Assembly: GCF_024218795.1 (NCBI RefSeq)
Contig: NZ_CP100400.1
Coordinates: 1,488,001-1,552,000 of the forward strand
Direction: 5' to 3'
From: Halorussus aquaticus
GTDB lineage: Archaea; Halobacteriota; Halobacteria; Halobacteriales; Haladaptataceae
DNA length: 64,000 bases
In this document: positions 47,856 through 52,052 of the stretch, one piece after another
Numbering within the stretch: the first letter of the stretch is position 1
Layout of the letters: each line of letters begins with the position of its first letter
Position numbers and translations under genes: made by a program
The notes under the pieces: generated by a model
Databases searched by the model: none
Seen by the model: only the letters and a program-made list of their open reading frames with translations
What the model was told of the DNA's origin: nothing

Positions 47856-48668
47856 ATGGCCCTGTCCGACCGCGAGTGGCGGCTGATTCGAGAGGAGTCC
47901 CGACGCGGCCCGATGAACATGGCCCTCGACGAAATCGCGGCCCAGACCGCGGCCGAGGAAGGGATTCGAACCGTCCGAGTCTACCAGTGGGACCCCAGCA
48001 CGCTCTCGCTGGGCTACCGGCAGGACCCCGACACCGTGGCGTGGAACTACTGCGACCGCGAGGGCATCACCGTGACGCGCCGACCGACGGGCGGCGGCGG
48101 TATCTACCACGACCGGGACGCCGATATCTCCTACTCCATCGTCGCGCCCGCCGACGAACTGCCGGGCGACCTGATGGAGACGTACGAACTGCTCTGCGAA
48201 CCCGTCTTCGACGCGTTCGAGCGACTCGGCATCGACGCGCGGTTCACCGACGAGAGACTCCCCGAAATCCACCAACCGGCTTGCTATCTCCGGGAACTCC
48301 ACCCCGCTCACGACGTGGTCGCGGGCGAGGGGCGAAAAATCTCGGGCAACGCCCAGTACCGCCGGAAGGACGCGGTCGTCCAGCACGGGTCGCTCAAGTT
48401 CGACCTCGACGCCGACCGTCACCTCTCGACGTTCGCCGACCCCGACACCGCGCCCGCGGAGTTCCGCGAGCGCGTGACCAGCATCGCCGAACAGTCCGGC
48501 GCGGACCGGGACGAGGCCGTCGAAGCGGTCGAGGACGCCCTCGGCGACTGGGCAGAGACCGACGACGGGAGTTGGACCGACGACGAACTGGCGCGCGCCG
48601 AGGAACGCGCCGAGGCGAAGTTCGAGAGCGAGGCGTGGGTCCGGGACCGCGAGGACCCGACCGAGTGA
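47856..48668 (+). CDS. Lipoate-protein ligase A family protein (BPL/LPL fold)
   Basis: A 270-residue protein. BPL_LPL motifs: GPMNMALDEIAAQ, LSLGYRQDPD, VTRRPTGGGGIYHD (Arg-Arg-x-Thr-Gly-Gly-Gly), DISYSIV, and GRKISGNAQYRRKDAVVQHGSL with the reactive Lys. It should attach lipoate (or octanoate) to acyltransferase E2 or GcvH. A C-terminal helical domain (residues 195-260) follows. It might alternatively be a lipoyl/octanoyl transferase. The DtxR-like box lies just upstream, between it and the 37-residue gene. Confidence 0.9.
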   Translation: MALSDREWRLIREESRRGPMNMALDEIAAQTAAEEGIRTVRVYQWDPSTLSLGYRQDPDTVAWNYCDREGITVTRRPTGGGGIYHDRDADISYSIVAPADELPGDLMETYELLCEPVFDAFERLGIDARFTDERLPEIHQPACYLRELHPAHDVVAGEGRKISGNAQYRRKDAVVQHGSLKFDLDADRHLSTFADPDTAPAEFRERVTSIAEQSGADRDEAVEAVEDALGDWAETDDGSWTDDELARAEERAEAKFESEAWVRDREDPTE

Positions 48669-48758: not shown

Positions 48759-48793
48759 AATTATAAGTCTCTCTGATTTGATGTTCGCGTATC

Positions 48794-51721
48794 GTGGTTC
48801 ACCTCGGCACCTTCCACAACGCGACGACCAATCTCCCGCTCGAACGGACCGACGACGGCCACCTCGTCCCCGACGCCTCGGTCGAAGAGATACACGAGGC
48901 CGCCAAGCAGGCCATGCGCGACCAGATTCGCCACGGCGTGCTGGCCGACGACCTCGGCTACGACTCGCTGTTTCTCTCGGAACATCACGCCCAGACGATG
49001 GGCCAAGAGGTCAGCACCAACCCGCTCCAGACCCTGACCGCAATCGCGGCCCGGACCGACGACCTGCGCCTCGGGCAGGCGTCGTGCATCCTGCCGTGGT
49101 ACGAACCGGTCCGGTTCGCCGAACAGGCCGCGCTCCTCGACGTGGTCAGCGACGGACGCGCCGAAATCGGCATCGGGCGCGGGTATCAACCCCGCGAGGC
49201 CGAACTCATGGGACAGTACTGGGGCGGCGGCGTCCAGAACCAGCCACGGAACTACGAGTCGTTCGAGGAGAAGTACGAAATCGTCCGGAAGGCGTGGACC
49301 GAGGACGTGTTCTCCTACGACGGCGAGTACCACAGCGTCCCGCCGAAGGGGACCAAGTGGCACCACGAGCAGGAGAAGGCCTACTACGAGAGCGACGCCT
49401 GCGAGTACGACCTCGACGACGTCATCGACTGGACCGACTCGGACCTCTACGCCAGCGACGGGGCGAACGAAGTCGTCTCGGGCGGTTCGACGCTCGACGC
49501 GGTGTCGGTCTATCCGCAGCCAGAACAGTCACCGCACCCGCAACTCTGGCAACCCGCGTTCTCGCCGCGCTCGATGAAGTTCGCGGCCGAGCGCGGCATC
49601 AACGGCTTCTACATCGGCCTGCCCAACGACGCGCTGGAGGACGCCATCGGTGCCTACTACCGGTTCGCCGAGCAGGCGGGGTGGCCCGACCACCGCCCGG
49701 AGTACGACGGCGAACCCTTCGCCTTCGGGTGGGACGAGCGACGGAACCGCGGCGTCGCGGTCACCCGCTACGTGTTCAACACCGACGCCGCCGACGCGGA
49801 GACGCTCGACCGCTGGAAGCGCGGACTGGAGAACCAGTGGAACTACTACGCGCCGCTGGGCCTGCTCGGAGCGGTCTCCGGACTCGATTACGAGGAAGCG
49901 ACGGCGGCGCTGCGCGAACACGGTGCCGACCTGTTCGTGGAGAAGGGCGTCGCCATCGTCGGCGACACCGACCACATCCGGGACGAGGTGTCGAGCATCG
50001 TCGAGGAGTGCGGACTCGACGGCCTGAACTTCCAACCGGCGTTCGAGGTCAACGGCGTCGGCGGCGAGGCGGTGGACGACCAGTTGCGCGCGTTCGGCGA
50101 GGACGTCGCGCCCTACCTCCGCGAGCAGTTCCCCGGCCCGTCCGCGGAGGCGACTTCCGGAAGCGCAGCGGCCGCCGACGGCGGAGGCGTCGAGACTGCG
50201 AGTGCGTCGGCCCAGACGGCCGCCGCCTCCACCGAGAGCAGTCCGGAGCGGTCGGCCGCGTCCGCCGATTCGGCGTCCGAGCGACCTGACGCTCCGGCCG
50301 ACGGCGAAGCGGACGCGTCGCTCGACGCCGACGACCTCGTGGCCGGGGTCGTCGCCCGGGCCGAGCGAGCGATGGACGCCATCGCCGACTACGACCAGTC
50401 CGCGACCGACGAACTGGTCCGAGCGGTCGGGTGGGCCGCCTATCGGGACGACAACGTCGAACCGGTCGCGCGCGCCGCCGTGGAGGACACCGCCATCGGC
50501 AACGTCTCCGACAAAGTCTACAAGGTGAAACGACAGGTCGAGGGGACGCTGGCCGACCTCCGGGACGCCCCGTCGGTCGGCGTCGTGGAGCGCGACCCCG
50601 AGCGCGGCGTCCGCGAGGTCGCCAAGCCGGTCGGCGTCGTCGGCGCGTTCACCCCCTCGACCAACCCCGTGGCGACGGTGCCGCAACTGGCGATGCTCGC
50701 GCTGAAGGGACGAAACGCCGTCGTCTTCTCGCCGTCGCCTCAGACGCGGCGCGCCTGCGCGGAGTTGGTCGAACACGTCCGCGAGGAGTTGGCGGCGGTC
50801 GGCGCGCCCGCCGACCTCGTGCAGGTGGTGCCCGGCGAGATAGACAAGCCGAAGGCCCACGCGCTGATGGAACGGGCCGACCTCCTGCAAGTTACGGGGT
50901 CCCAGAACAACGTCGAGGCCGGGCAGTCGTCGGGGACGCCCAACTACAGCGTCGGCGCGGGCAACGTCGTCAGCGTGGTGGACGAGACCGCCGACATCGC
51001 GCAGGTCGCGGAGTTCGTCGCGGTCAGCAAGCCGCTGGACGACGGCGCGACCTGCGTCAACGTCAACTCGCTCGTCGCGGAGTCGTCGGTCGCCGACGAA
51101 CTCCGAACGGCGCTCGAAGTCGCGGGCGGGTACTACTGCGACGACGCCGAACGCGACCGAGTCGAGGAGACGCTCTTCCGCGACGGCCACCTCGACCGGC
51201 GGGCCATCGCCTCGGACGCGGGGACGCTGGCCGAGATGGCGGGCATCGACCGCGCCGCGGACGCCGACTTCCTGCTGGTGGACGGCGAGGGCGTCGGCGA
51301 ACGCCACCCCCTCTCGGGCGAGAAGCTCACGCCCGTCCTGACGGTGTACGAAGCGCCGGACTTCTCCGCGGCGCTCGACCTCACCCAGTCGATAGTCGAG
51401 TACGAGGGCATCGGCCACTCGTGTACGATTCACACGTCGGAAGACGACCGCGCCGAGCGCATGGGCGAGGCCATCGACGTGGGTCGGGTGTTGGTCAATC
51501 AGCCCTCGCTGTGTCTCGCTGGCGCGGGGAACAACGACCTCGACTTCACGCTCTCGCTGGGCGGCGGCACGTGGGCGGGCAACCAGTTCGACGACAACCT
51601 CGGCTACGAGTACTTCCTGAACTACACGACCGTCGCCGCGGACGACGGCGGCCGCCTCCCGGACCGCGAGGACCTGTTCGGCGACTACCCCGTCGCCGAG
51701 GAGCGGCCTCCCGAACTGTAG
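48794..51721 (+). CDS. Fusion: luciferase-like flavin monooxygenase + acylating aldehyde dehydrogenase
   Basis: A 975-residue protein with GTG start at 48794. Residues 1 to about 450 are an LLM-class flavin monooxygenase: VHLGTFHNATTN, LFLSEHHAQTMG with E63-H64-H65, DGRAEIGIGRGYQPRE, and VAIVGDTDHIRDEV. Residues about 455-510 are an Ala/Ser/Asp-rich linker. Residues about 515-975 are an aldehyde dehydrogenase of the acylating type: VGVVGAFTPSTNPVATV, GRNAVVFSPSPQT, predicted catalytic Cys754 in DDGATCVNVN, and YEGIGHSCTIHTSED. Acylating ALDHs oxidise aldehyde to acyl-CoA, and LLM enzymes can make aldehydes (for example by desulfonation), so channelling is plausible. The linkage is visible in one frame; the substrates are inference. 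Confidence 0.92.
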   Translation: MVHLGTFHNATTNLPLERTDDGHLVPDASVEEIHEAAKQAMRDQIRHGVLADDLGYDSLFLSEHHAQTMGQEVSTNPLQTLTAIAARTDDLRLGQASCILPWYEPVRFAEQAALLDVVSDGRAEIGIGRGYQPREAELMGQYWGGGVQNQPRNYESFEEKYEIVRKAWTEDVFSYDGEYHSVPPKGTKWHHEQEKAYYESDACEYDLDDVIDWTDSDLYASDGANEVVSGGSTLDAVSVYPQPEQSPHPQLWQPAFSPRSMKFAAERGINGFYIGLPNDALEDAIGAYYRFAEQAGWPDHRPEYDGEPFAFGWDERRNRGVAVTRYVFNTDAADAETLDRWKRGLENQWNYYAPLGLLGAVSGLDYEEATAALREHGADLFVEKGVAIVGDTDHIRDEVSSIVEECGLDGLNFQPAFEVNGVGGEAVDDQLRAFGEDVAPYLREQFPGPSAEATSGSAAAADGGGVETASASAQTAAASTESSPERSAASADSASERPDAPADGEADASLDADDLVAGVVARAERAMDAIADYDQSATDELVRAVGWAAYRDDNVEPVARAAVEDTAIGNVSDKVYKVKRQVEGTLADLRDAPSVGVVERDPERGVREVAKPVGVVGAFTPSTNPVATVPQLAMLALKGRNAVVFSPSPQTRRACAELVEHVREELAAVGAPADLVQVVPGEIDKPKAHALMERADLLQVTGSQNNVEAGQSSGTPNYSVGAGNVVSVVDETADIAQVAEFVAVSKPLDDGATCVNVNSLVAESSVADELRTALEVAGGYYCDDAERDRVEETLFRDGHLDRRAIASDAGTLAEMAGIDRAADADFLLVDGEGVGERHPLSGEKLTPVLTVYEAPDFSAALDLTQSIVEYEGIGHSCTIHTSEDDRAERMGEAIDVGRVLVNQPSLCLAGAGNNDLDFTLSLGGGTWAGNQFDDNLGYEYFLNYTTVAADDGGRLPDREDLFGDYPVAEERPPEL

Positions 51722-51731
51722 CACCCCGGAG

Positions 51732-52052
51732 TCACGTCGCTCTCGTCCGGTAGTAACTCCGCTCGCCCTCGCCTGTGTCGAGGACTCTTCGCTCCAGCGC
51801 GCCGTGGTCCACGAGTCGGTCCAGAATCGCGCTCACGGTCGCCACGTCGACGATACAACCGATGAGGTCGTCGTTGCCGTCGCCGACCGGGTAGTCCACG
51901 TTGGCCTCGGACCATCCGGTGTCCATCACCGCCTCGGTAATTTCCAAGACGTTGTACGCCTGCTGGTCGTTCTCCCTGAGGAACGTCAGCACCCGCCTCT
52001 CGACGGAGTAGCGCTCCCCGCCCCGTTCGAAGGTTTCGAGGCTGATAGGCAC
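51732..52052 (-). CDS. Winged-helix DNA-binding protein (haloarchaeal)
   Basis: A 106-residue protein. The order is ERYSVERRVLTFLRENDQQAYNVLEITEAVMD, a helix-turn-helix start, then GCIVDVATVSAILDRLVDHGALERRVLDTGEGERSYYRTR as recognition helix and wing. It has no ligand domain, so it probably acts as a small regulator. It is convergent with the LLM-ALDH fusion (10 bases between stops) and may or may not regulate it. Confidence 0.75.
   Translation of the reverse strand: MPISLETFERGGERYSVERRVLTFLRENDQQAYNVLEITEAVMDTGWSEANVDYPVGDGNDDLIGCIVDVATVSAILDRLVDHGALERRVLDTGEGERSYYRTRAT

Follow-up and report, generated by a model that had tools for sequence, protein, structure and literature searches.

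A haloarchaeal gene joining a luciferase-like monooxygenase to a predicted CoA-acylating aldehyde dehydrogenase

The window analysed here, a 64,000-nucleotide stretch of the Halorussus aquaticus genome, contains a gene that encodes a luciferase-like monooxygenase (LLM) and an aldehyde dehydrogenase (ALDH) in a single chain (Table 1). The gene is carried on a 3.59-Mb contig of a genome that measures 4.74 Mb in total. A first-pass annotation of this DNA had described one continuous frame for the two enzymes, and the 975 codons are indeed open throughout from the GTG start. Pfam recognizes both halves: Bac_luciferase matches in two stretches, the best of them at residues 37-187, and Aldedh (PF00171, 6.3e-21) covers residues 518-774. 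Alignment agrees with the positions previously assigned to the E63-H64-H65 motif and to Cys754. The location of the TTATAAG element suggests a leaderless promoter and transcript for the fusion gene. Leaderless transcripts are usual in haloarchaea.

Table 1. Features of the fusion gene and its borders (positions within the window)
Feature	Position	Strand	Basis
Fusion gene, 975 aa, GTG start	48794..51721	+	Single open frame; counterpart fusion in G013 and G026 at 97%; purifying selection on both domains
LLM domain, residues 1-448	48794..50137	+	PF00296, 4.4e-43; profile and fold matches
E63-H64-H65 motif, luciferase/FMN type	48980..48988	+	Alignment
Ala/Ser/Asp-rich linker, residues 449-508 (~60 residues), predicted disordered, length variable between species	50138..50317	+	pLDDT <50; in-frame indels among three genomes
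Predicted CoA-acylating ALDH domain, SauS-like, residues 509-975	50318..51721	+	NF047625, 516.5 bits against a cut-off of 600; nearest solved structures SucD 8cei and GtACDH 5j7i
Val720, replacing the general-base Glu of non-acylating ALDHs	50951..50953	+	Aligned to Glu in a non-acylating ALDH from this genome
Predicted catalytic Cys754	51053..51055	+	Aligned with Cys of SauS, ethene-plasmid and other SauS-like ALDHs
His875, GHS motif conserved in acylating ALDHs	51416..51418	+	Alignment
TATA-box-like TTATAAG, ~27 nt upstream of GTG	48761..48767	+	Sequence; conserved in G026
Left flank, lipoate-protein ligase-like gene, empty-site border, outside the system	47856..48668	+	PF21948; empty sites in G016, G012 and G021
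Right flank, small conserved gene, other empty-site border, outside the system	51732..52052	-	Empty sites in congeners

Among the flanking genes scanned, we found none for a flavin reductase, a transporter or a pathway enzyme beside the fusion, in keeping with the earlier remark that neither a sulfonate transporter nor a flavin reductase is adjacent. The neighbours (lipoate ligase-like protein, substrate-binding protein, PEBP, AP endonuclease family, RIO kinase and AzlCD) give no pathway, and a local pathway context was rejected. Since they include no pathway and the fusion is missing here in congeners, the flanking genes are probably unrelated to it.

Within the genus, the fusion occurs in three of 18 genomes examined, namely the window genome (G000), G013 and G026, and it is absent from all 10 other genomes of the family that were examined. 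The G013 and G026 proteins consist of 969-971 residues (97% protein identity), and their linkers are shorter than that of the window by 4 and 6 residues through in-frame indels only. Comparison of the three genes gave dN/dS values of 0.042-0.082 for the LLM domain, 0.067-0.095 for the ALDH domain and 0.24-0.30 for the linker. Hence, both domains are under purifying selection, and the constraint on the linker is relaxed. Since the linker differences are in-frame and both domains are constrained, we can eliminate a frameshift or assembly error as the origin of the fusion; the split in sister genomes that the first-pass annotation had considered did not appear, as G013 and G026 carry the fusion intact. 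In G016, G012 and G021, only ~40-65 bp separate the lipoate-ligase-like gene from the small gene, and the interval is empty. This empty site between the same flanking genes indicates that the fusion is a discrete unit that was gained (or lost). Between the window and G013, the fusion shows a dS of 0.14-0.22 and the flanks one of 0.32-0.56. This difference speaks against purely vertical descent together with the flanks and suggests that the fusion has been exchanged within the genus.

We detected no further fusion in 79 relatives or in overlapping sets of 116, 148, 292 and 392 genomes of the class or phylum. The sampled archaeal genomes outside the genus, several hundred in number, yielded none, although undersampling may hide others. 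Six peptide patterns run against the genome collection returned separate ALDHs only, and plasmid searches with each half returned separate genes wherever features were annotated. A phage origin was also rejected, as phage records yielded only ALDH-like matches with ~31% identity. The open-access literature searched, with incomplete coverage, does not describe such a protein. Both families are known; their combination is without counterpart in the genomes or literature searched.

The AlphaFold model of the fusion (mean pLDDT 75, pTM 0.49) assigns a pLDDT below 50 to residues 450-508, and its confidence is also low at residues 129-148, 594-610 and 905-953, which are parts of both domains. A disordered linker, as predicted by this model, fits a tethering of the two domains. 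Because the domains are joined in this way, the model does not predict a fixed tunnel inside the monomer, and any channelling would rest on proximity.

The ALDH half is predicted to be of the CoA-acylating type. Its best NCBIfam model is SauS (acylating sulfoacetaldehyde dehydrogenase), followed by AdhE and EutE-type models. The nearest solved structures by sequence and by fold are the acylating enzymes SucD from Clostridium kluyveri (8cei-8cek) and ACDH from Geobacillus (GtACDH, 5j78/5j7i). The active site is of the acylating type: Val720 occupies the position that carries the general-base Glu in a non-acylating ALDH encoded by the same genome, and Cys754 and His875 are conserved. Family models, nearest structures and Val720 together rule out a non-acylating ALDH. 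This assignment bears out the acylating type proposed in the first-pass annotation, which had also considered that this half might match only non-acylating enzymes; the best families and structures are acylating.

The match to SauS raises the possibility that the LLM half desulfonates or oxidizes a C2 sulfonate to sulfoacetaldehyde, which the SauS-like half would convert to sulfoacetyl-CoA. The first-pass annotation had hinted at sulfonates as well. SauS is the best model at 516.5 bits, and the fused ALDH is 50-52% identical to haloarchaeal SauS proteins that are encoded with Xsc, CoA-transferase or Tct genes. However, the curated cut-off of NF047625 is 600 bits, which is passed by an Xsc-linked relative (L041, 675.8 bits) and by L014 (652.9 bits) but not by the fused ALDH. 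In our tree the fused ALDH lies outside the Xsc-linked SauS clade, and its active-site loops 745-765 and 896-935 follow the pattern of an ALDH from Haloarcula JP-L23, not that of SauS. Moreover, G000, G013 and G026 contain no Xsc: the best score of the Xsc model in G000 is 316 bits against a cut-off of 676.4, a level common to every genome tested. In G090, which encodes a true SauS, the neighbouring match to this model scores 671 bits. Score, tree and absence of Xsc rule out membership in SauS proper. Together with the differing loops, and with no sulfonate transporter adjoining the fusion, they make the sulfonate pathway a very doubtful explanation. Clade, loops and missing Xsc likewise indicate that sulfoacetaldehyde is unlikely to be the aldehyde of the fusion.

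The fused ALDH groups with the JP-L23 ALDH (100/98) and with two ALDHs of G347 (99/98); since JP-L23 is a long branch, its exact position is less sure. The JP-L23 ALDH and one of the G347 ALDHs adjoin genes for ACP, ketoacyl synthase, AcpS and malonyltransferase, and the second G347 ALDH is encoded near MaoC dehydratases. Going by the neighbours of these relatives only, our guess is that the aldehyde is neutral or fatty. A fatty-acid-synthesis partner in the same genome was rejected, because no FabF-type synthase was found in the fusion genomes. Two haloarchaeal loci (L063:11365-14978 and L105:639-6510) contain small type II fatty-acid/polyketide synthase-like clusters (ACP, KAS, AcpS, MAT, SDR), each adjoining an ALDH of the fused type.

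Our survey shows that haloarchaeal SauS-like ALDHs have radiated into at least three genomic contexts. In G090 and Halomarina PSR21, the SauS proteins above the cut-off or in the clade are accompanied by Xsc, phosphate acetyltransferase, CoA-transferase III and Tct transporters; their companions in QH_8_64_26 and Haloterrigena KLK7 are CoA-transferase and Tct genes. Loci L041:250-10885 and L067:8902-19317 hold complete-looking haloarchaeal sulfoacetate clusters that consist of SauS, Xsc, phosphate acetyltransferase, CoA-transferase III and a Tct transporter. Other SauS-like ALDHs (L064:1-11356, L042:8839-18327, L027:835-8991) adjoin an iron alcohol dehydrogenase and a large AMP-binding/ECH/ADH protein of 1811 residues that resembles propionyl-CoA synthase, joined in Natribaculum by methylmalonyl-CoA mutase. 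This module may possibly convert malonyl-CoA or 3-hydroxypropionate to propionyl-CoA in haloarchaea. Actinobacterial ethene plasmids encode related ALDHs close to coenzyme M genes. On those of Nocardioides JS614 and Mycolicibacterium NBB4 (L065:7935-10324, L068:4188-8329), the ALDH gene is beside or near that of an LLM of family TIGR03564, and the two could possibly form a pair for 2-hydroxyalkyl-CoM oxidation. The fused ALDH falls in none of these three contexts. Finally, homologues in an apparent dap lysine-synthesis cluster (L030:8903-10474, L045:3127-4620, L046:9026-10618) have lost the catalytic Cys (DFGAHPAG) and are predicted to be dead enzymes.

The LLM half appears to belong to a small family of FMN type, as profile and gene neighbours favour FMN over F420. 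E63 and H65 are invariant in an alignment of 11 sequences. Compared with solved structures, a profile of 11 sequences matches RslO1 (7bip) and Enhygromyxa luciferase (8cbb) at 4e-32, LuxA at 4e-19 and a diketocamphane monooxygenase (4uwm) at 6.5e-18; the best F420 enzyme, 3b4y, follows at 1.3e-8. The matches of a fold search (2i7g, 7bip, 8cbb, 1luc) agree with the FMN-type ranking. SsuD (TIGR03565) is not among the best 25 of 50 NCBIfam hits, and relatives score 19.6 and 30.1 bits against its cut-off of 518.

Stand-alone relatives of the LLM half are of two kinds. The first resides in catabolic clusters. Those of G087, G471 and Rhodococcus USK10, with relatives at 38-51% identity, include a PF01613 flavin reductase, which in USK10 is encoded 1.1 kb upstream of the LLM relative, and the G529 relative adjoins genes for acyl-CoA dehydrogenase, enoyl-CoA hydratase, 3-hydroxyacyl-CoA dehydrogenase and two AMP-ligases. 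A further relative in G067 has no clear context. The second kind forms a haloarchaeal clade (100/100) with members near LanM class II lanthipeptide synthetases in G002, G012, G035, G156 and G299. The fused LLM is placed outside this clade, its exact place among the relatives being weakly supported. The loci of the lanthipeptide clade (L024:8818-11471, L025:8885-10141, L028:9033-10307, L029:6685-7971, L044:9135-10415, L134:9309-10541) often contain MFS or ABC transporters. The one member that was scanned gave no match to TIGR03564, which includes the known lanthipeptide reductases LxmJ and Cao12 (PMC8068269), and the proteins of the clade are candidates for new lanthipeptide tailoring enzymes.

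The LLM half could instead be an F420-dependent alcohol dehydrogenase with the ALDH half acylating its product, so that the fusion would oxidize an alcohol to acyl-CoA without oxygen in the manner of AdhE. F420 metabolism is general in haloarchaea. Furthermore, AdhE is the second NCBIfam match of the ALDH half and is itself such a fusion, and the LLMs encoded on the JS614 and NBB4 plasmids are of the F420 type. Yet the profile favours FMN enzymes by more than 20 orders of magnitude in E-value, the JS614 LLM belongs to another subfamily and flavin-reductase genes recur near LLM relatives. We judge this explanation to be decidedly unlikely.

The first-pass annotation had also drawn an analogy with the lux pathway. 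If the fusion worked as luciferase and LuxC do, the ALDH half would use NAD(P)H to reduce an acyl-CoA to a (fatty) aldehyde, from which the LLM half would form the acid by oxidation with FMNH2 and O2. The synthase-like genes next to the closest ALDH relatives are consistent with this direction, and the structures nearest to the LLM half include bacterial luciferases, although RslO1 and diketocamphane monooxygenase come about equally close. On the other hand, the fusion genomes lack a FabF-type synthase, LLM relatives outside the lanthipeptide clade accompany degradation genes, and the net reaction would waste reductant unless it yielded light or a dedicated product. A LuxC model is neither among the Pfam families shown nor among the best 25 of 50 NCBIfam hits, and LuxC presumably belongs to a different ALDH branch. 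The analogy is not the best reading, and we consider a lux-like direction unlikely. There is little chance that the fusion is an archaeal version of the lux core in a single chain, in which the aldehyde made from acyl-CoA would be oxidized with FMNH2 and O2, possibly for light, as a dedicated signal or as a redox valve.

It is also conceivable that the domains have unrelated substrates and that the tether serves co-expression or assembly only. The long disordered linker with its relaxed constraint would permit this, and we saw no LLM gene beside the separate haloarchaeal ALDH genes examined and no ALDH gene beside separate LLM genes. The intact fusion in three species and the strong constraint on both halves argue against this explanation, which we hold to be very improbable.

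The best explanation, to which we give about an even chance, is that the fusion is a bifunctional oxidase of carbon catabolism, in which an FMNH2-dependent monooxygenase releases an aldehyde and the tethered ALDH converts it to acyl-CoA. A flavin reductase encoded elsewhere in the genome would supply FMNH2. The LLM half would use FMNH2 and O2 to oxidize the substrate to an aldehyde, which the ALDH half would capture on Cys754, reducing NAD(P)+ and passing the acyl group to CoA. The product would enter central or beta-oxidation metabolism. Meanwhile, the flexible linker of ~60 residues would hold the two sites close and limit escape of the reactive aldehyde. Observed are the joined domains, their conservation, an acylating-type active site in the ALDH half and, for the LLM half, an FMN-type family whose relatives occur in clusters with flavin-reductase or beta-oxidation genes; we infer the cofactor, the direction and the coupling of the two halves. 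The immediate neighbourhood, which lacks a flavin reductase, a transporter and pathway genes, gives no local support for cofactor or substrate. Sequence does not fix the direction either, because ALDHs of this type are reversible, and the fatty-acid-synthesis-like neighbours of the closest ALDH relatives, for which the reverse direction is natural, count against this explanation. An oxygenase and a CoA-acylating dehydrogenase in one chain would offer a compact means of capturing a reactive aldehyde. Encoded by one gene as one protein, the fusion is also an experimentally simple handle on this LLM family.

Several known systems resemble parts of this protein. RslO1 (7bip), the Agrobacterium monooxygenase 2i7g and the diketocamphane monooxygenases (4uwm, 5aec) provide the nearest solved structures for the LLM half, but they are only 17-19% identical, single-domain and ~100 residues shorter. 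SauS shares the catalytic Cys, the GHS motif, the acylating type and 50-52% identity over the ALDH half; the fused ALDH differs by its sub-cut-off score, other active-site loops, a separate clade, the lack of a genomic Xsc and its fusion to an LLM. The JS614 and NBB4 plasmids place an ALDH of the same subfamily near an LLM-class gene, but as separate genes, with an F420-type LLM of another subfamily and in a coenzyme M pathway. LuxAB and LuxCDE also combine an LLM fold with EHH motif and aldehyde and acyl chemistry in one system. Unlike the fused ALDH, LuxC is a separate protein, and the fusion shows no evidence of light and probably runs in the opposite direction. Comparable logic is found in AdhE, where an ALDH of the same acylating class shares its aldehyde with a second redox enzyme in the chain; this partner is a C-terminal iron alcohol dehydrogenase in AdhE and an N-terminal LLM in the fusion.
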